64,000 bases of DNA from Devosia sp. A16 (GTDB lineage: Bacteria; Pseudomonadota; Alphaproteobacteria; Rhizobiales; Devosiaceae). The notes below the pieces were generated by a model. The model was not told the DNA's origin. It saw only the letters and a list, made by a program, of their open reading frames with translations, and ran no database searches. A program made the translations under genes and the position numbers. The first letter of the stretch is position 1; each line of letters begins with the position of its first letter. Shown here one piece after another: positions 121 to 47,524 of the stretch. The DNA is taken from contig NZ_CP012945.1 in assembly GCF_001402915.1 (NCBI RefSeq), positions 4,937,501 through 5,001,500 on the forward strand. Direction: 5' to 3'.

Positions 121-546
121 TCAGGCGGGAAACAGTCCGCGCTTGGCCAGCTCAACCCGTGCCCGGAGCTCGATCTCGTCGAGCAATGCGTCCAGCCCGG
201 GCTCCGATCGCTCCCGCGCCTGGCTCAACACAGCCATGAGCTGGTTGAGGCGGCCCTCGGCCATCCGCCCACCCAGGAGGTCGCCGCGCAGCCCCTCCAG
301 CGTGTCGATCAACTGGTTGCCGCGCCGCACCATCTTGCGCCGCTTGAGCAGCGGGTCCTCGACGGCCTGCAGCGCCAGCAATGCGTCAAGCGAGGTGGCT
401 GCGGCAATGGAGGCGGTCGGCCGCGCCTCCTGGGCCTGCGGTCCCTGCCCGATCTCGAACGCCACGCCGGACGCGCCGCGACCGGACGCCGAGCGCCCCG
501 CCACATTGCCTACCCGCGCATTGTTCTCGATCCGCACCGGACTCAC
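121..546 (-). CDS. fliX: Flagellar assembly regulator FliX
   Basis: A 141-residue protein matching the FliX family, a small alphaproteobacterial regulator that couples early flagellar assembly to sigma-54/FlbD-dependent expression of later genes. The N-terminal 45 residues are low complexity (Ala/Gly/Ser/Arg), followed by a conserved helical part with the family-like stretch DALLALQAVEDPLLKRRK and a helix ending near the C-terminus. The start used is a GTG at 546; an in-frame GTG lies three codons downstream, so the start is not certain. The gene diverges from flgI, the same arrangement described in Caulobacter, and a perfect CtrA-type box lies 40 bp upstream of the start. Identification is from sequence recognition only. 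Confidence 0.88.
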   Translation of the reverse strand: MSPVRIENNARVGNVAGRSASGRGASGVAFEIGQGPQAQEARPTASIAAATSLDALLALQAVEDPLLKRRKMVRRGNQLIDTLEGLRGDLLGGRMAEGRLNQLMAVLSQARERSEPGLDALLDEIELRARVELAKRGLFPA

Positions 547-600: not shown

Positions 601-686
601 TGCGCCCGGCAGGACTTGCCCATCGACGCCAGGCGCCACGCTTCCGTCGAGAGCATTATCGAGCAAAATCAAACATTTGTGGAGTT

Positions 687-702
687 TGGCACGGTTCTGG
701 CA
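687..702 (+). promoter_or_regulatory. Sigma-54-type promoter of flgI
   Basis: TGGCACG-GTTC-TGGCA fits the -24/-12 consensus TGGCACG-N4-TTGCW with one mismatch and has exact GG-N10-GC spacing. It ends 55 bp before the flgI start, leaving room for a short leader. Caulobacter-type class III flagellar genes use such promoters. Confidence 0.6.
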
Positions 703-756
703 ACGCTCCCGGCAATCGCGGTGCATGGGGATGTGCCGCTTTCCGGGGACTACCAG

Positions 757-1881
757 ATGGCCAAATTCAACCTGAAGCGCGCCTTGCTTGGTCTGATGAC
801 CGCCTTGCTGCTGCTGCCGCAGCCAGGCGTGAGCTTCGCCGCCGCCGCGCGCATCAAGGACGTCGTCAACATCGAGGGCGTGCGAGACAACCAGCTGGTC
901 GGCTACGGCCTGGTGGTCGGCCTCAACGGCACCGGCGACGGCCTCAACAACTCGCCCTTCACCAAGCAGAGCCTGCAGGCCATGCTGGAGCGGCTGGGCG
1001 TTAATACCCGCGGCGAGAGCATGCGCACCGGCAATGTCGCAGCGGTTATGGTGACAGCCAACCTGCCGGCCTTCTCGACCCAGGGCTCCCGTCTCGACGT
1101 CAACGTCGCCTCCTTGGGCGATGCCAAGAGCCTGCAGGGCGGAACCCTGCTGGTGACGCCGCTGCTCGGCGCCGACGGCGAGGTCTACGCCATCGCCCAG
1201 GGCTCGGTGACCATCAACGGCTTCTCGGCCGCCGGCGATGCGGCCTCGGTCGTCTCGGGCGTCCCGACCACCGGCCGCATTTCCTCGGGCGGGCTGATCG
1301 AGCGCGAGATCGGCTTCGTGCTCGGCGCGCAGCGCTCGCTGCGTCTGGCGCTCCGCAATCCCGACCTCACCACCTCGCGCCGCATCGCGCTCGCGATCAA
1401 CGATTTCATCGGCGTGCCCTGCGCCACGCCCGAGGATCCGGCGACTATCCGGCTCAACCTGCCCCGCAACTTCAACGGCAATATCGTCGACCTGCTCACC
1501 GACATCGAACAGCTGGTCATCGAGACCGACCTGCCGGCCAAGATCGTCATCGACGAGAACTCCGGCATCATCGTCATGGGCAAGGATGTGCGCGTCTCCA
1601 CCGTGGCCGTGGCCCAGTCCAACCTCACGGTGACCATCGCCGAGAGCCCCACGGTGGTGCAGCCCAACCCGCTGAGCCTCGGCCAGACCGCCGTCGAGCC
1701 GCGCACCGATCTCTCGGTGAACACCACCGACAGCAACCTCGCGGTGGTGCCGGAATCGGTGAGCCTGCAGGAACTGGTCGATGGCCTCAATGCGCTCGGC
1801 ATCAGCCCGCGCGACCTGATCGCCATCCTGCAGGCGGTGAAGGCCTCGGGCGCCTTGCAAGCCGACATCGAGGTGCTGTGA
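757..1881 (+). CDS. flgI: Flagellar P-ring protein FlgI
   Basis: A 374-residue precursor of the P-ring subunit, which assembles round the flagellar rod in the peptidoglycan layer. The ATG at 757 gives a typical signal peptide: a basic start, then LLGLMTALLLL, and an Ala-rich cleavage region near residues 28-31. The mature protein begins with RIKDVVNIEGVRDNQLVGYG and contains GLNGTGDGLNNSPFT, both hallmark FlgI segments; the C-terminus (VSLQELVDGLNALGISPRDLIAILQAVKASGAL) is also characteristic. Length is normal for the family. An open frame extends upstream to 616 but would bury the signal peptide. The stop overlaps the next start by 1 bp (TGATG), so translation is probably coupled. Confidence 0.97.
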   Translation: MAKFNLKRALLGLMTALLLLPQPGVSFAAAARIKDVVNIEGVRDNQLVGYGLVVGLNGTGDGLNNSPFTKQSLQAMLERLGVNTRGESMRTGNVAAVMVTANLPAFSTQGSRLDVNVASLGDAKSLQGGTLLVTPLLGADGEVYAIAQGSVTINGFSAAGDAASVVSGVPTTGRISSGGLIEREIGFVLGAQRSLRLALRNPDLTTSRRIALAINDFIGVPCATPEDPATIRLNLPRNFNGNIVDLLTDIEQLVIETDLPAKIVIDENSGIIVMGKDVRVSTVAVAQSNLTVTIAESPTVVQPNPLSLGQTAVEPRTDLSVNTTDSNLAVVPESVSLQELVDGLNALGISPRDLIAILQAVKASGALQADIEVL

Positions 1882-40416: not shown

Positions 40417-40787
40417 TCAAAGCGCGCTGCGGATATCGGTCTGACTGAAGTCGTCGCCGACGAAAAGCAAGGGGCAATCACGATCCTTGGCGAGAGCGTA
40501 GGCGAAGCAGTCGCCATAGTTGAGTTTGGCACGGTGCCGGCCCTTTCCGAACTCGGGGAAAGCCTCACCGACCTGGTATGCGAACTCCGCGGTCACAGGA
40601 ACGATGTCGAAATCGAGCCGCCCAAGAAGGTGGCGCATCTGAGGGGAGAGCTCTCGGGCCTCGGCAACAATTAGCGCCTCTGCAACAGTCGCAGTGGAGA
40701 TAAGCAACGGGGCTCCATGCTTGATCGCGTCCTTGCTGGCTCGTCTAGTATGATGGCCACCAGCGCGGATGTATCGACTGCAATCAC
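40417..40787 (-). pseudogene. VapC-type PIN toxin, frameshifted
   Basis: A PIN-domain toxin split between two frames. Reading from a GTG at 40787, which overlaps the antitoxin stop by 4 bp (GTGA), one frame gives VIAVDTSALVAIILDEPA and soon stops. The body continues in another frame as SKDAIKHGAPLLISTATVAEALIVAEARELSP ... LNYGDCFAYALAKDRDCPLLFVGDDFSQTDI. The switch falls near 40735-40748; the length of 371 bp fits loss of one base. All four acidic PIN residues (D of VDTS, E of AEAL, D of YGDC, D of GDDF) are present across the frames, so the inactivation looks recent, or is a sequencing error. Confidence 0.85.
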
Positions 40788-41044
40788 CAAGGCAACCCGT
40801 ACTCGTCGTACAGGTGATCCGAGCTATGCGCAGCGTCTGGTCCGGGAAGGCCCTTGCCTTTGGCGTCCTGAACGATCTCGTCAATGATGCGTCCACGTTC
40901 TTCGGGAGTCAGCGACGCTCGCTTGACCGGTCCTAGCTGCGCCACCGCACGTCCGTGCCTGGTCAAAACGATCTCCTCGCCCGCTTCCGCGCGGTCGAGC
41001 AGTTCTTCCAGCTTGTCGTGAGCTTCCTTGACGGAGATGTCCAT
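40784..41044 (-). CDS. Phd/YefM-type antitoxin
   Basis: An 86-residue antitoxin: MDISVKEAHDKLEELLDRAEAGEEIVLTRHGRAVAQLGPV is the standard Phd/YefM DNA-binding domain, followed by a toxin-binding tail ending YDEYGLPW. The ATG at 41044 has GAGG seven bases upstream; an ATG six codons earlier exists. It precedes the VapC-type toxin with a 4-bp overlap, the usual order. If the toxin is really broken, the antitoxin may remain as a repressor or protect against related toxins. Confidence 0.9.
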   Translation of the reverse strand: MDISVKEAHDKLEELLDRAEAGEEIVLTRHGRAVAQLGPVKRASLTPEERGRIIDEIVQDAKGKGLPGPDAAHSSDHLYDEYGLPW

Positions 41045-41109
41045 CCTAGACCTCAAAGGCATCCGAGCCTCTAATATAGGCGCCGGAAACCGTCCGGTCA
41101 AAGTCGGCC

Positions 41110-41912
<803 letters not shown>

Positions 41913-42250
41913 CCCCGCAACCCTTCCTACCGCCCGAACCTGGGCTATGGCAGGACGCTAGCGGGACCGGATGAAGGGCAGCCAAAACCAATGGGTACAA
42001 TCTTATCTATGCCCTTAACCGGCCGCATTCGGACCGGAAATTAACCTTCCATTAAGAATGCGTTCGGTTTGCCTCAAATTGTATGTATGTTTGAGGTCCA
42101 CCTAGCGTGCGGCGGCGTGGGGCATCGGGCAGACTGCGGGGCATTTGAATCGCATTTTACCCAATTTGGACGACTAACCGGAACCCCGGCGGTGGTCCAA
42201 TGCAGGCTCTGATCGACCGCCACGTGCCGATGCGAGAGTTGTAAAGAGTT
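41913..42250. other. Hpt/GPR divergent intergenic region
   Basis: 338 bp without a gene. It contains the perfect CtrA box at 42041-42055, an extra half-site TTAACC near 42015, and the promoters of two divergent genes. No terminator or further repeat is seen. Confidence 0.65.
42041..42055. promoter_or_regulatory. CtrA-type box TTAA-N7-TTAA
   Basis: TTAA, CCTTCCA, TTAA: a perfect CtrA consensus match, including the common TTAACC start. It lies 195 bp before the GPR-like start and 128 bp before the Hpt start. The other perfect match in the window is in the fliX/flgI region. Confidence 0.75.
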
Positions 42251-45200
42251 ATGGCCAAAAAGACCGCAACACCCCAGAACGATCCTGCAACTCTGGCATT
42301 CTCGGCAGTCGAGGACGCGCTCAAGGACTCGGTTTTCGCCAACCTTGACCAACCTGCTGCAGCGGAAGAGCCGCCGGCAGAGAAGGCCGCGCCGAAGCTG
42401 CCGCCGCGCGACAACTCGGCGCGCTCCGAACGTCAGCGCACCGCCGACAAGTTCGCGGCGCAGACCGGTTCGGTCGCCAACGACGACCGCTTCCCCTCTT
42501 CCAAGATTCTCTACGGCCTGCAGTCGAAATCGTCCGGCACGCCGACCATGGTGGCCGGGCTGGTGGCGCTCGGCTGGGTGGTGGCGATTGCGCTGGTGGC
42601 GATGATCCGCAACGGCGCCGACATGGGCACCGCTTCCTTCTGGGGCTCGAACGACTTCATCGGCCTCCTCGCGCTCGCCATCGTGCCGGTGATCGGTATT
42701 TTCGCCATCGCCACGCTGATCCGGCGCGCGCAGGATCTGCGCAATGCCGCGGCCGCCGTGACGCAGGCGGCGATCCGCCTTGCCGAGCCGGAAACCACGG
42801 CCTCCGAGAAGGTGGCCTCGGTCGGCCAGGCGGTGCGTCGCGAGGTGAACGCGCTGGGCGACGGCCTCGAGCGCGCCCTGTCGCGCGCCGGCGAGCTCGA
42901 AGTGATGATCCACAACGAGGTCACTGCGCTCGAGCGCACCTATTCGGATAATGAATCCCGCATGCGCGCTCTGATCCAGGAACTGGCGAGCCAGCGCGAA
43001 GCGGTGATCACCAATACCGAGCGCGTTCGCGAAGCGATCACCGAGAGCCACACCGGCCTGGTGTTCGACCTCGACATGATCTCGCAGCGCATCGCCGGCA
43101 CCATCGTCGAATCGGGCGGCAACCTGACCAAGGCGCTGGAGACCGCGGGCAACTCGCTGAACGGCGCCTTCGGCGAGCGCACCGAGAGCTTCGTGTCGCT
43201 GATCGACCAGCGGACCAGCCACCTGCTGGTCGCCCTCGACGATTCCGCCTCGCGCCTCAACATCACGCTCGAGGACCGCGCCGGTACCATCTCGGGCGCG
43301 TTCGAGAACCGCACGCAGGAGTTGAGCGCGGTGATCGACGGGCGCATGCAGTCGCTGACCGAGGCGCTCGACAGCCGCGCCGTGACCCTCTCCGACGCCA
43401 TCGACAACCGCACCTCCTCGCTCGCCAAGCTTCTGAGCCAAGGCGGCATCACCCTGCTCGACCAGTTGCGCGATCGCGGCCATGAAGTGTCGAGCGCCCT
43501 CGACATGATCGGCACCCGCATCGCTTCGGACATCACCGGCCGCGCCCGCGAGGCGGAGCAACTGCTGAGCGGCCTCAGCCACCAGCTCGACGAGCAGGTG
43601 CAGATCCAGGTCAACTCGATGGAATCGCGCCTGCAGTCGGCGATGATCGAGCTGAGCGGCGCCCTCGACGACACCACCGAGCGCGCCCGCGTCACTCTCA
43701 CCGGCGCCGGCTCGCAGAACCTCGCCCAGTTCGATGCCCGCCTCGACGAGATCGCGGTGGTGATCGACAACCGGCTCGCCAGCCTCGACGGCGTCATCGG
43801 CGACAAGGGCGACAAGCTGATCGCCGCGCTCGACAAGAACAATGCCAGCTTCGCGGCCCGCGCCAACGTGCTGGAGATGGCGCTCGACGAGAAGTCCGAG
43901 CACTTCAACGAGATCGTGTCGCAGCGTACCCGTGAGATGACCGAGACGCTCGGCCAGCGCACCAAGCAGATCACCGAGGCGATCGCCAACCGCTCTCAGG
44001 AGATCTCGGATTCGCTCGAAGGCCATACCCAGATCATCGCCGACGCGCTCGACAGCCGCACCCAGCTGCTGAACGACACGCTGGGCAGCCGTCATGGCGA
44101 GCTGAGCGCCGCGCTCGACGAGCACGTCAAGGCCTTCGACGTGACCATTGCCGGCCATGCCCGCGCCATGGACACCAACATCATCACCCACGCCCAGGCG
44201 ATCGACCTGGCGCTCGGTTCGCGCGTCGAGCAGTTCGACAACGTGCTGACCGGCCGCGCCAAGGAGCTCGACCAGGCCGTGGCGAGCCGCACCCAGGCGC
44301 TCGACCAGGCGGTGGCGACCCGCACTCAGGCCATCGACATCGCCCTGCAGCAGCACGCCCAGCAGATCGGCGACAGCCTCGATCAGCGCACCGCGACGCT
44401 CGACGCGACCCTGCTGCAGCATGCCCAGCAGCTCGGTGACAGCCTCGACCAGCGCACCCAGGCCCTCGACACCGCTCTGGTGCGGCACGCCGGACAGATC
44501 GGCGACAGCCTCGATCGTCGCAGCCAGGCGATCGACAGCACGCTGCAGCAGCATGCCCAGCAGATTGGCGACAGCCTCGACCAGCGCACCCAGGCGTTGG
44601 CATCGGCGGTTGCGACCCGCTCGGCCGAGCTCGCCGAAGCGCTCAACACCAGGACCCAGCAGCTGGCCGAAACCCTCGGCAGCCACACCGTCGGCATTGC
44701 CGCGGCGATCGGCGAACGCACCAGCGAGCTGGCCCGCACCATCGACGCCCAGGGCACGACGGCCCGCGACCGGATCGATGCAAGCCTGCGCAACGTCACC
44801 GAGGTGATGTCCGAGCGCGCCGGTGCCGTCTCGACGCTGATCGAAACCAAGGTCGCCGAAGTGAGCGAGGGCCTCGGTCGCGGCATCGACAGCGCCATCC
44901 TGCGCATGGCCGATGCCGAAGCGGGCGTGAACGCCCGCATCGAGAATGCGGCCGGCACCGTCGGCGAAAGCGCCCGCAAGGCCGCCGACATCATCGAGAC
45001 CGGCGTCAACTCGGCACGCAAGGCGATCACCGACATGGTCGATCAACGCCTGGGCACCCTGCCCGAGGCGATCACCGCCCGCGCCGATATCACCGCCGAG
45101 CGCCTCGCTTCGCTCAATACCGCAATCAACACGGCGCTGGTGCAGTCGATGACCGACCTCGAGGCCGGCGCAGACCGCATCGAGGAGACCATCTCCCGCC

Positions 45201-47524
45201 GCATCGTCTCGGCCACGCAGGGCATCGCCGACGATGTCACCTCGACCGCCGACCGCATGGACGTGGCCGTGGGTCGTGCCCTCGCCCAGATCCAGCAGGC
45301 CTCGAGCAACATCGACGAGCTGATCTCGATCAAGGCGGTGGCCGCAGCCGACGCCATCGGCGGCAAGGTCGCCGAGATCAACCGCGTGGTGTCCGAGAAG
45401 ACCGATGCCTTCTCGGCGCTGGTTTCCGACAGCTCGGCGCAGTTGGAAATGAGCCTGCAGAACCACGGGAACGTCTTGGCGCAGGCGCTGATCACCAACG
45501 CCTCGCAGGCCGAAGACCTGATGAACCAGTCGACCTCGCGCATCCTGACCGATGTGACCACGGCGCTGGGCAAGCTCAACGACTCCAACATGCTGCTGCA
45601 GAAGGTGCTCGACGCCTCGACCGCCAACCTCGCCAACCTCGAGAACTCGGTCGCCCAGCAGACCGCCACCTACTCGACCACGGTGCGCGAAGCGATCGGC
45701 TCGACAGAAGAGGCAGGACGCCTGGTCACCGAACATGTCGGCGCGCTGCAGGCCTCGATCGCCTCGATGGTCAACGAGTTCGGCTCGATGCTGGGCAACC
45801 TCGACGCCGAGGCCAAGAGCCTCGACAGCGCGGCGCAGAACCTCTCGGCTTCGGGCACCATGACCCTCGCCAACCTCGACGAGCGCCGCTCGGCGATGGA
45901 CGCGCTGGCGCAGGCCTTCACCGCCCGCGCCGACGAGATCGATGGCCGTATGCGTGGCTTCGCCCACTCGATCACCGAAACCGTCGAAGAGACCGAGCAG
46001 CGCCTGGTTGCCGCCCGCGAGTCGATGGAGCAGCTGCTGGCATCGACCACGTCCGGCGTCGCCGAAACGCTGGAAGCGACCTCCGGCACCATCAACGCCG
46101 CGCTCGCCGACACCACCGGCCAGCTGCACAGCGTGCTGACCAGCACCGCCGAGACGGTGCAGGCGGCTCTTGGCGAGACCACCGGGCAGCTCGAATCGGT
46201 GCTCACCAGCACGGCCGAAAAGGTGCAGAACGCCTTGGGCGAGACCACCAGCCAGCTCGAATCGGTGATGGGCAGCACGGCCGAGAAGGTGCAGACCGCC
46301 CTGGGCGAGACCACCGGTCAGCTCGAGTCGGTGCTGAACAGCACCGCCGAGCGGGTGCAGACCGCCCTGGGCGAGACCACCGGCCAGTTGGAGCAGGCCC
46401 TCACAGGCACCACCGACAAAGTGCAGAACGCCCTCGCGAGCGCCACTGCGGAGATGCAGACGGTGCTCGGCAAGAGCACCAACCTGCTGGAAGAGGCGCT
46501 GGAAGGCACCTCGCACCGCGTGGCGACGCAGCTGGGCTCGTTCACCGACACCGCGGCCAATGAAAGCCAGCGTGCCGCCGACGCCCTGCGCCAGACCCAG
46601 GCGACGATGATCCTCGAGATGCAGCAGGCCCTCGAGGCAGCGACGCAGCGCTTCAACGAGACCGCCTCGGCCATGCGTGCCACAGCCAAGGAAGTGGGTT
46701 CGGAACTCGAGAACACCCGCTCCGAGCTGGCGCGCGGCGTGATGGAGCTGCCGGAAGAGACCAAGTCGAGTGCTGCCGCAATGCGTCGCGTCGTTGCGGA
46801 GCAGATCGAGGCCCTGGCCGAGCTCAACGCCATCGTGCGCGCCCAGCCGGCGACCCACGATCTCAACGAACGCCGCCCGTCGGCCCCGACCCGGCAGAGC
46901 ATCGTGCGTGACGAAGCCCCCTCGCGGCCCGAGCCCATCCGTCCTGCCGAGCCGCCCAGGGCCGAGCCGGTTCGTCCGCAGCCGCGCCTGACGGCAACGA
47001 CCGAGGTCGTGGCGCCCACGGTCACCGCACCGCGCCCGCAGCCCGTTGCCGAGGCCAAGCCCGCGGCCAAGACCGAGGAAGGTGGCGGCTGGCTGCGCGA
47101 CGTGTTGCGCAACGCCTCGGGTCCGAGCACCGCAGCTCCGGCTGCGGCCGCCGCGCCGGCAGCGCCCGGTGCGTCCGCAGCCCCGGCGCAGAATCTCTCG
47201 ACCCTGACCGAGGAAATCGCCAAGTCGATGGAGCCCTCGGCCCTGGCCGACGCCTGGCAGCGTTACCAGGCCGGCGAGCAGAACGTCTTCTCGCGCCGCA
47301 TCTACACGCTGGGCGGCCAGGCGACCTATGACGAAGTGCGCAAGCGCATCCAGCGCGACAGCGACTTCGCCAAGACCGCCGCGACCTACATGGCCGAGTT
47401 CGAGCAATTGCTGAAGCGCGCCGCCACCGGAGCCAATCCGGCCGGCGAGACCCGCGAGTATCTGCTCAGCGACCGTGGCCGCGTCTACACCATGCTGGCC
47501 CATGCCAGCGGCCGTCTCGGCTGA
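42251..47524 (+). CDS. Giant growth-pole-ring (GPR/RgsE)-like coiled-coil protein
   Basis: A 1757-residue membrane-anchored protein resembling Agrobacterium GPR (growth pole ring protein, about 2100 residues) and Sinorhizobium RgsE, which form a ring at the growing pole and are needed for polar growth. Residues 1-95 are a cytoplasmic, Ala/Pro-rich part; two transmembrane helices follow (about 99-119 and 136-157); then over 1300 residues of nearly continuous amphipathic helix of apolipoprotein type. Exact 22-residue repeats occur at about 686-795 (DSLDQRTQALD units) and 1286-1395 (GETTGQLESVL units). A Pro/Ala linker (about 1535-1645) precedes a conserved C-terminal domain (ALADAWQRYQAGEQNVFSRRIYTLGG). 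A terminator follows. Confidence 0.85.
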   Translation: MAKKTATPQNDPATLAFSAVEDALKDSVFANLDQPAAAEEPPAEKAAPKLPPRDNSARSERQRTADKFAAQTGSVANDDRFPSSKILYGLQSKSSGTPTMVAGLVALGWVVAIALVAMIRNGADMGTASFWGSNDFIGLLALAIVPVIGIFAIATLIRRAQDLRNAAAAVTQAAIRLAEPETTASEKVASVGQAVRREVNALGDGLERALSRAGELEVMIHNEVTALERTYSDNESRMRALIQELASQREAVITNTERVREAITESHTGLVFDLDMISQRIAGTIVESGGNLTKALETAGNSLNGAFGERTESFVSLIDQRTSHLLVALDDSASRLNITLEDRAGTISGAFENRTQELSAVIDGRMQSLTEALDSRAVTLSDAIDNRTSSLAKLLSQGGITLLDQLRDRGHEVSSALDMIGTRIASDITGRAREAEQLLSGLSHQLDEQVQIQVNSMESRLQSAMIELSGALDDTTERARVTLTGAGSQNLAQFDARLDEIAVVIDNRLASLDGVIGDKGDKLIAALDKNNASFAARANVLEMALDEKSEHFNEIVSQRTREMTETLGQRTKQITEAIANRSQEISDSLEGHTQIIADALDSRTQLLNDTLGSRHGELSAALDEHVKAFDVTIAGHARAMDTNIITHAQAIDLALGSRVEQFDNVLTGRAKELDQAVASRTQALDQAVATRTQAIDIALQQHAQQIGDSLDQRTATLDATLLQHAQQLGDSLDQRTQALDTALVRHAGQIGDSLDRRSQAIDSTLQQHAQQIGDSLDQRTQALASAVATRSAELAEALNTRTQQLAETLGSHTVGIAAAIGERTSELARTIDAQGTTARDRIDASLRNVTEVMSERAGAVSTLIETKVAEVSEGLGRGIDSAILRMADAEAGVNARIENAAGTVGESARKAADIIETGVNSARKAITDMVDQRLGTLPEAITARADITAERLASLNTAINTALVQSMTDLEAGADRIEETISRRIVSATQGIADDVTSTADRMDVAVGRALAQIQQASSNIDELISIKAVAAADAIGGKVAEINRVVSEKTDAFSALVSDSSAQLEMSLQNHGNVLAQALITNASQAEDLMNQSTSRILTDVTTALGKLNDSNMLLQKVLDASTANLANLENSVAQQTATYSTTVREAIGSTEEAGRLVTEHVGALQASIASMVNEFGSMLGNLDAEAKSLDSAAQNLSASGTMTLANLDERRSAMDALAQAFTARADEIDGRMRGFAHSITETVEETEQRLVAARESMEQLLASTTSGVAETLEATSGTINAALADTTGQLHSVLTSTAETVQAALGETTGQLESVLTSTAEKVQNALGETTSQLESVMGSTAEKVQTALGETTGQLESVLNSTAERVQTALGETTGQLEQALTGTTDKVQNALASATAEMQTVLGKSTNLLEEALEGTSHRVATQLGSFTDTAANESQRAADALRQTQATMILEMQQALEAATQRFNETASAMRATAKEVGSELENTRSELARGVMELPEETKSSAAAMRRVVAEQIEALAELNAIVRAQPATHDLNERRPSAPTRQSIVRDEAPSRPEPIRPAEPPRAEPVRPQPRLTATTEVVAPTVTAPRPQPVAEAKPAAKTEEGGGWLRDVLRNASGPSTAAPAAAAAPAAPGASAAPAQNLSTLTEEIAKSMEPSALADAWQRYQAGEQNVFSRRIYTLGGQATYDEVRKRIQRDSDFAKTAATYMAEFEQLLKRAATGANPAGETREYLLSDRGRVYTMLAHASGRLG
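44306..44635 (+). repeat. 66-bp tandem repeats, block 1 (inside the GPR-like gene)
   Basis: GACAGCCTCGA recurs at 44372, 44438, 44504 and 44570, exactly every 66 bp. Each unit encodes 22 residues (DSLDQRT-x3-LD-x3-LQHAQQIG type), the helical period of apolipoprotein repeats. Units are degenerate at some codons, so they are not fresh duplications. Confidence 0.9.
46106..46435 (+). repeat. 66-bp tandem repeats, block 2 (inside the GPR-like gene)
   Basis: GGCGAGACCACC recurs at 46172, 46238, 46304 and 46370, every 66 bp, with a diverged unit before them. Each unit encodes GETTGQLESVL-TSTAEKVQNAL-type 22 residues. DNA similarity between units is high, so this block could change copy number by recombination. 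Confidence 0.92.

Follow-up and report, generated by a model that had tools for sequence, protein, structure and literature searches.

The intergenic region between a free-standing ShpA-like Hpt gene and a divergent GPR/RgsE-like growth-pole gene in Devosia sp. A16 contains a perfect TTAA-N7-TTAA box, which is retained at a near-constant position in related genomes. Its identification as a CtrA-type site, made from the DNA sequence, is supported by the half-sites, their spacing, genome-wide enrichment of the motif and conservation. It is likely that CtrA reads this region as a divergent promoter; it would bind TTAACCTTCCATTAA, most likely activating the GPR gene, and across much the greater part of the family it would control hpt as well. 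The retention in relatives of a likely CtrA site at a growth-pole gene makes it probable that polar growth in these bacteria follows the timing of the cell cycle.

Organization of the locus

The window, i.e. the whole 64,000-nt stretch analysed, contains the features listed in Table 1. Coordinates and Pfam matches agree with the 338-bp gap, the divergent Hpt gene and the 1757-residue gene described in an earlier note on this DNA, and both the perfect box (present as TTAACCTTCCATTAA) and the TTAACC half-site that it reported near 42015 were found. The start codon of hpt, and hence the exact length of the gap, is uncertain, as residues 1–19 are modelled at low confidence and the conserved part of the protein starts near residue 22. 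The description of the Hpt protein as an orphan also stands, in that the neighbouring genes scanned with Pfam included none for a kinase or regulator. Between the ferredoxin gene and sulfite reductase-type genes lies a PIN-domain gene (40417–40896, minus strand; PF01850, 7e-11) adjoining a small antitoxin-like frame within 40784–41314, the pair spanning 40417–41314.

Table 1. Features of the hpt–GPR region, numbered from the first nucleotide of the window
Feature	Position	Strand	Remarks
Intergenic gap	41913–42250		338 bp, between divergent hpt (−) and GPR-like gene (+)
Free-standing ShpA-like Hpt gene	41520–41912	−	130 aa; Pfam Hpt 5e-9; phospho-acceptor His71
GPR/RgsE-like growth-pole scaffold gene	42251–47524	+	1757 aa; PF01442 5.4e-50
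GPR-side CtrA-type box TTAACCTTCCATTAA	42041–42055	+	TTAA-N7-TTAA; anchored in 80/81 distinct near regions
TTAACC half-site	42015–42020	+	Kept only within the window's close clade
TTCGGT, possible GPR −35 and third half-site-like element	42063–42068	+	Near-family logo
TGTATGTT with conserved TGTAT, possible GPR −10	42084–42091	+	Near-family logo
Degenerate hpt-side CtrA-type box, TTTG-N7-TTCA on hpt strand	41972–41986	−	Family alignment
Possible hpt −10, CTAGCG region	41955–41963	−	TAnnnT columns, +26 of hpt-side box
GAATC, a GANTC (CcrM-type) site in the GPR leader	42147–42151	+	Offset kept in 19/80 near regions
Ferredoxin gene	41110–41565	Same direction as hpt	Fer2 1.1e-11; conserved beside hpt order-wide

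The CtrA-type motif in the genome

CtrA is a master switch of the bacterial cell cycle. The A16 genome encodes a CtrA orthologue with 83 % identity to a Caulobacter CtrA query sequence, the other matches reaching 32–38 %, and one ChpT-type protein (PF10090) is encoded about 5 kb from ctrA. There are 23 exact TTAA-N7-TTAA sites in the genome (one contig, 5.03 Mb), compared with three at spacing N6 and five at N8; the reversed pattern gives three, three and four sites at N6, N7 and N8, respectively. The controls average 3.6 sites per genome, a rate at which the Poisson probability of at least 23 N7 sites is about 8e-12. The same rate predicts 0.046 site per 64 kb and 0.0002 per 338 bp, which bears out the earlier, uncomputed statement that a chance match in 64 kb is unlikely. 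Two exact sites lie within the window, and none was obtained in 100 dinucleotide shuffles of it.

Eighteen of the other 22 genomic sites fall between genes as called by a crude gene caller. A Pfam scan around these sites covered 10 proteins at 8 of the 22, namely FliX, FlgI, FliP, a flagellar rod protein, a RAMA-domain adenine methylase (ccrM-like), an NtrC-type regulator, three GGDEF proteins and one EAL protein. In this genome, the motif is enriched beyond its spacing controls and is present at classical CtrA targets; fliX is a CtrA target in Caulobacter. For S. meliloti, ccrM is reported as a CtrA target (PMC4433202), and the consensus reported from CtrA ChIP-seq in Hyphomonas is TTAA-N7-TTAAC (PMC7200025).

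The second site in the window, a perfect TTAA-N7-TTAA at 586–600 (TTAAGCAAACGTTAA), is located between fliX (121–546, minus strand; PF10768, 3.1e-33) and flgI (616–1881, plus strand; PF02119, 3.2e-136), and is likely to represent a CtrA-controlled divergent flagellar promoter.

Conservation of the GPR-side box within the family

A lack of conservation in close relatives was named in the earlier note as counting against its reading, but the box is kept there. A search with the Hpt protein found it in 51 of 61 genomes, giving 30 loci (L016–L045), in all of which the frames for Hpt and for the N terminus of GPR are adjacent and divergent. The exact box is present in 29 of these, 190–215 nt before the GPR start (308 nt in L032), the exception, L040, having one mismatch. 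The TTAACC half-site is kept in nine of the 30 (L016–L024), 233–237 nt before the GPR start.

With the addition of 80 contigs from Devosia, Arsenicitalea, Pelagibacterium, Maritalea and bins, the near set comprises 110 loci. A divergent Hpt gene is present in 107, and removal of duplicates left 81 distinct intergenic regions. The exact N7 box occurs in 42 of the 81, compared with 0–3 at nine other spacings; an AATT control reaches at most 7, at N6. When the search is anchored on TTAAC on the GPR strand and the second half may differ at one base at most, N7 is found in 71 of 81 regions and other spacings in 0–13. A GPR-side box could be anchored in all near regions except L142; its second half is exact in 40, has one mismatch in 30 and two in 10. 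These anchored counts are preferred to a count of 81/81 within one mismatch, which pools GPR-side and hpt-side boxes and so mixes the two, the hpt-side box being itself one mismatch from TTAA-N7-TTAA. In the logo of the 80 anchored regions, TTAA and the following C are invariant and the spacer letters vary; many Devosia regions have the form TTAACC-N5-GTAA. No exact box occurs in the first 900 nt of the GPR coding sequence in any of the 81 near loci, and one lies inside or just past the Hpt gene in two.

Possible promoter features flanking the box

The position of the GPR-side box is near-constant across the family, at a fixed distance both to GPR and to a conserved TGTAT. In the near-family logo, TTCGG is conserved at +22 of the box (T23 in 79, C24 in 78 and G26 in 77 of 80 regions), which extends the 11-bp periodicity of the half-sites; at +43 comes TGTAT (63 to 79 of 80 per column). 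The TTCGGT and TATGTT (42086–42091) elements, 17 bp apart, may represent −35-like and −10-like sequences, respectively. A sigma-70 scan of the 338-bp gap gave no consensus promoter match and a terminator scan of the same gap found nothing. At the offset of the GANTC site, the count of 19 in 80 near regions compares with 1–6 for other 5-mers. The GPR leader also contains a GC-rich element, AGCGnGCGGCGGcG, at 42091–42130, which is conserved in most aligned family loci.

A second box, facing hpt and overlooked in the earlier note, reads TTAA-N7-TTCA and is exact in 67 of the 81 near regions; on the hpt strand, other spacings of TTAA-NX-TTCA give 0–2, except for 16 at N4. Within one mismatch it is matched in 80 regions. 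In 59 of these the match lies 66–72 bp from the GPR box, in eight it is about 105 bp away on the other side, and thus at other places, and at least seven of the remainder are at other spacings. TAnnnT-like columns are found at +26 of the hpt-side box in the near regions. In the clade of the window, the family alignment shows that one half of this box has been lost. The proposal that the two genes are switched together is partly supported: the family mostly has one box per gene, but the degenerate hpt-side box makes joint switching less certain for hpt than for GPR in the window's clade.

The Hpt–GPR pair beyond the family

The GPR N-terminal profile gave six matches, two of them from the order, in a class-wide sample of 142 genomes. 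Among the GPR matches listed for Hyphomicrobiales, the divergent Hpt–GPR pair is present in 107 of 136 genomes and 30 of 34 families, 53 of the 189 genomes with a GPR match having contributed no locus through it. Adding 16 genomes fetched through an Hpt match raises these figures to 123/152 genomes and 38/42 families; this count is biased by the 16 genomes having been chosen for their Hpt, and 107/136 is the unbiased one. Of the 29 genomes without a divergent Hpt, 26 were searched (two loci ending at a contig end and G100 were left out). Twenty lack such an Hpt at E 1e-5, and in the other six, all from one family, Hpt is encoded in the same direction as GPR, 0.8–4.2 kb before it. Exact boxes within 600 nt of GPR number only three across the 29 loci; they come from a single family and are AT-rich.

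The box signal is weaker outside the family. In 115 regions from 37 families, exact N7 boxes are found in 10 families, compared with 1–6 at other spacings. TTAAC-anchored boxes facing hpt are found in 24 families (4–13 at other spacings) and those on the GPR strand in 11 (3–11). Under the loosest definition N7 reaches 27 families and other spacings 7–18; the far signal is thus partly due to chance, as N6 reaches up to 18. Six of 38 families (f2, f9, f28, f30, f39 and f44, with three, one, six, one, one and six boxless regions, respectively) keep the pair without an N7 box within one mismatch, which argues against a universal rule.

The constant adjacency of Hpt and GPR is suggestive. Beyond the family, however, a ferredoxin gene also lies past hpt in 88 of 92 loci, representing 32 of 33 families, and the near set has it in 59 of 108 loci, duplicates included. 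Part of the adjacency is therefore general synteny, and adjacency alone proves no functional link. Outside the order, a divergent frame whose N terminus is GPR-like (E 1e-21 to 1e-7) was seen at 11 of 24 loci with a ShpA-like Hpt, these 11 representing five families, in a survey that left out L325 and L328, where Hpt lies inside a long frame. To judge from these loci, the pair may predate the order. An exact N7 box is present in two of the 11 (N5 also two) and, within one mismatch, in eight compared with 1–6 at other spacings, a signal too weak to build on.

The encoded proteins

The identification of the large gene as GPR-like agrees with the PF01442 (Apolipoprotein A1/A4/E) match, which covers five stretches along the protein. 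Such a domain and two N-terminal membrane segments are reported for Agrobacterium GPR (PMC8262873), and a similarity of GPR to TipN is already in print (PMC8546619). Like GPR (A. tumefaciens Atu1348) and RgsE (S. meliloti SMc00190), it is a long helical protein with PF01442 domains, and among 199 genomes sampled from the order, 189 yield a single match each to the N-terminal profile. At 1757 aa it differs in length from Atu1348 (2115 aa), to which it is likened by domain content and not by direct alignment.

The Hpt protein has a four-helix bundle and a phospho-acceptor His, according to the structural model and the alignment: the modelled fold is a bundle of helices (pLDDT 88; low over residues 1–19), and the column of His71, within an H-x-x-K motif, carries His in 77 of 81 near sequences and in 114 of the 119 far ones. 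Its best PDB sequence match is Caulobacter ShpA (2ooc; profile E 1.4e-8), which Foldseek places second (TM 0.79 by target, 21 % identity) after a Shewanella Hpt domain. The two proteins share the fold and the GD, EVL-LF and H-x-x-KG motifs. They differ in that identity is only 21 % in the structural alignment and that here GPR adjoins the gene; a stalk role as in the Caulobacter ShkA–ShpA–TacA relay is not expected. With ChpT, the phosphotransferase of the CtrA relay, the Hpt protein has the type of function in common, but ChpT belongs to another family (PF10090) encoded elsewhere in the genome.

The two other Pfam Hpt domains of the genome both lie inside CheA-type kinases. The window Hpt is therefore the only free-standing one that Pfam recognizes in this genome, and it may act as a hub for hybrid kinases. 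The NtrC-type response regulator at one of the other N7 sites (L008, 1501–3013), whose called start lies 59 bp downstream of a perfect CtrA-type box, could be a partner of Hpt, by analogy with TacA and ShpA; a TacA model gave no match to it above the cut-off. In Caulobacter, tacA is reported as a direct CtrA target (PMC7010744), which ties the ShpA relay to CtrA and makes CtrA control of a ShpA-like Hpt plausible.

Proposed regulation and alternatives

A CtrA dimer would bind TTAACCTTCCATTAA at 42041–42055 and touch the DNA again at TTCGG, one helical turn further downstream. CtrA bound next to or over the possible GPR −35 would activate the GPR promoter, and synthesis of the scaffold would then occur at a fixed point of the cell cycle. 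Across most of the family, the second box would overlap the hpt −35 region and place hpt under CtrA too; in the window's clade, control of hpt is probably weaker or exerted through a shared site. The ShpA-like Hpt would be a working phosphotransfer protein, probably serving hybrid kinases. The half-sites and spacing are those of CtrA promoters in Hyphomonas, Sinorhizobium and Caulobacter, a CtrA orthologue is encoded, and the motif also occurs at fliX/flgI and a ccrM-like gene. Unlike those promoters, this candidate site, recognized by sequence, would have a growth-pole scaffold gene as its target; there are paired boxes for two divergent genes, and TTCGG in register.

Activation is the most likely outcome because of the position of the box relative to the possible GPR −35. 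In S. meliloti, CtrA is reported to act as a repressor as well as an activator, the Min system being among the functions that it represses (PMC4433202); here too it might bind but repress GPR, so that the scaffold is off in the CtrA-high phase. This is unlikely, given that the box would lie upstream of the likely −35/−10, in phase with them, and not over the likely start. That the box serves mainly hpt, or is shared by both genes, with GPR regulated otherwise, would fit the observation that the most prominent boxes in other families face hpt and that, with the hpt-side box degenerate in the window, the gap has no intact box other than the one at 42041. The family, however, usually has two separate boxes, the GPR-side one at a fixed distance to GPR and TGTAT, and this arrangement makes such a reading distinctly improbable.

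The adjoining promoter columns are conserved as well, as would be expected if the region were kept as a plain AT-rich promoter or as the site of a regulator other than CtrA. It is very unlikely that this accounts for the box, since N7 is specifically favoured in the genome and in relatives and the spacer letters vary. A chance match was considered too, control spacings yielding 3–5 sites per genome; with 0.0002 expected in 338 bp and the site kept in relatives, conservation and the spacing controls rule it out for practical purposes. CtrA activation of GPR from TTAACCTTCCATTAA is thus the preferred reading.

Implications

CtrA control of GPR/RgsE appeared in no title or abstract found, supplementary ChIP-seq lists being outside the scope of the search; rgsE may be listed among the S. 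meliloti CtrA ChIP-seq peaks (S4 Table of PMC4433202). Excerpts of PMC9022086, PMC8546619 and PMC9731437 contain no CtrA–GPR/RgsE link, and the main texts of PMC7327166, PMC8262873 and PMC9938171 mention neither CtrA nor Hpt. GPR expression is reported as unchanged on RdsA depletion (PMC9022086), which does not bear on CtrA.

A broader and rather doubtful possibility is that a ShpA-like Hpt and a GPR/TipN-type polar scaffold form an ancient module. The two genes would have stayed divergent neighbours throughout Hyphomicrobiales and in some alphaproteobacterial families outside it, with CtrA governing both over much of the order, and Hpt would act in a relay at the growing pole that feeds back on CtrA or the scaffold. 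If true, such a module would close a loop between the cell cycle and polar growth. To our knowledge, how polar growth is timed to the cell cycle in Hyphomicrobiales is largely open. With a CtrA-type site conserved at the scaffold gene's promoter, this timing becomes testable with one mutation, and the conserved Hpt partner is a candidate link from phosphorelays to the growing pole.
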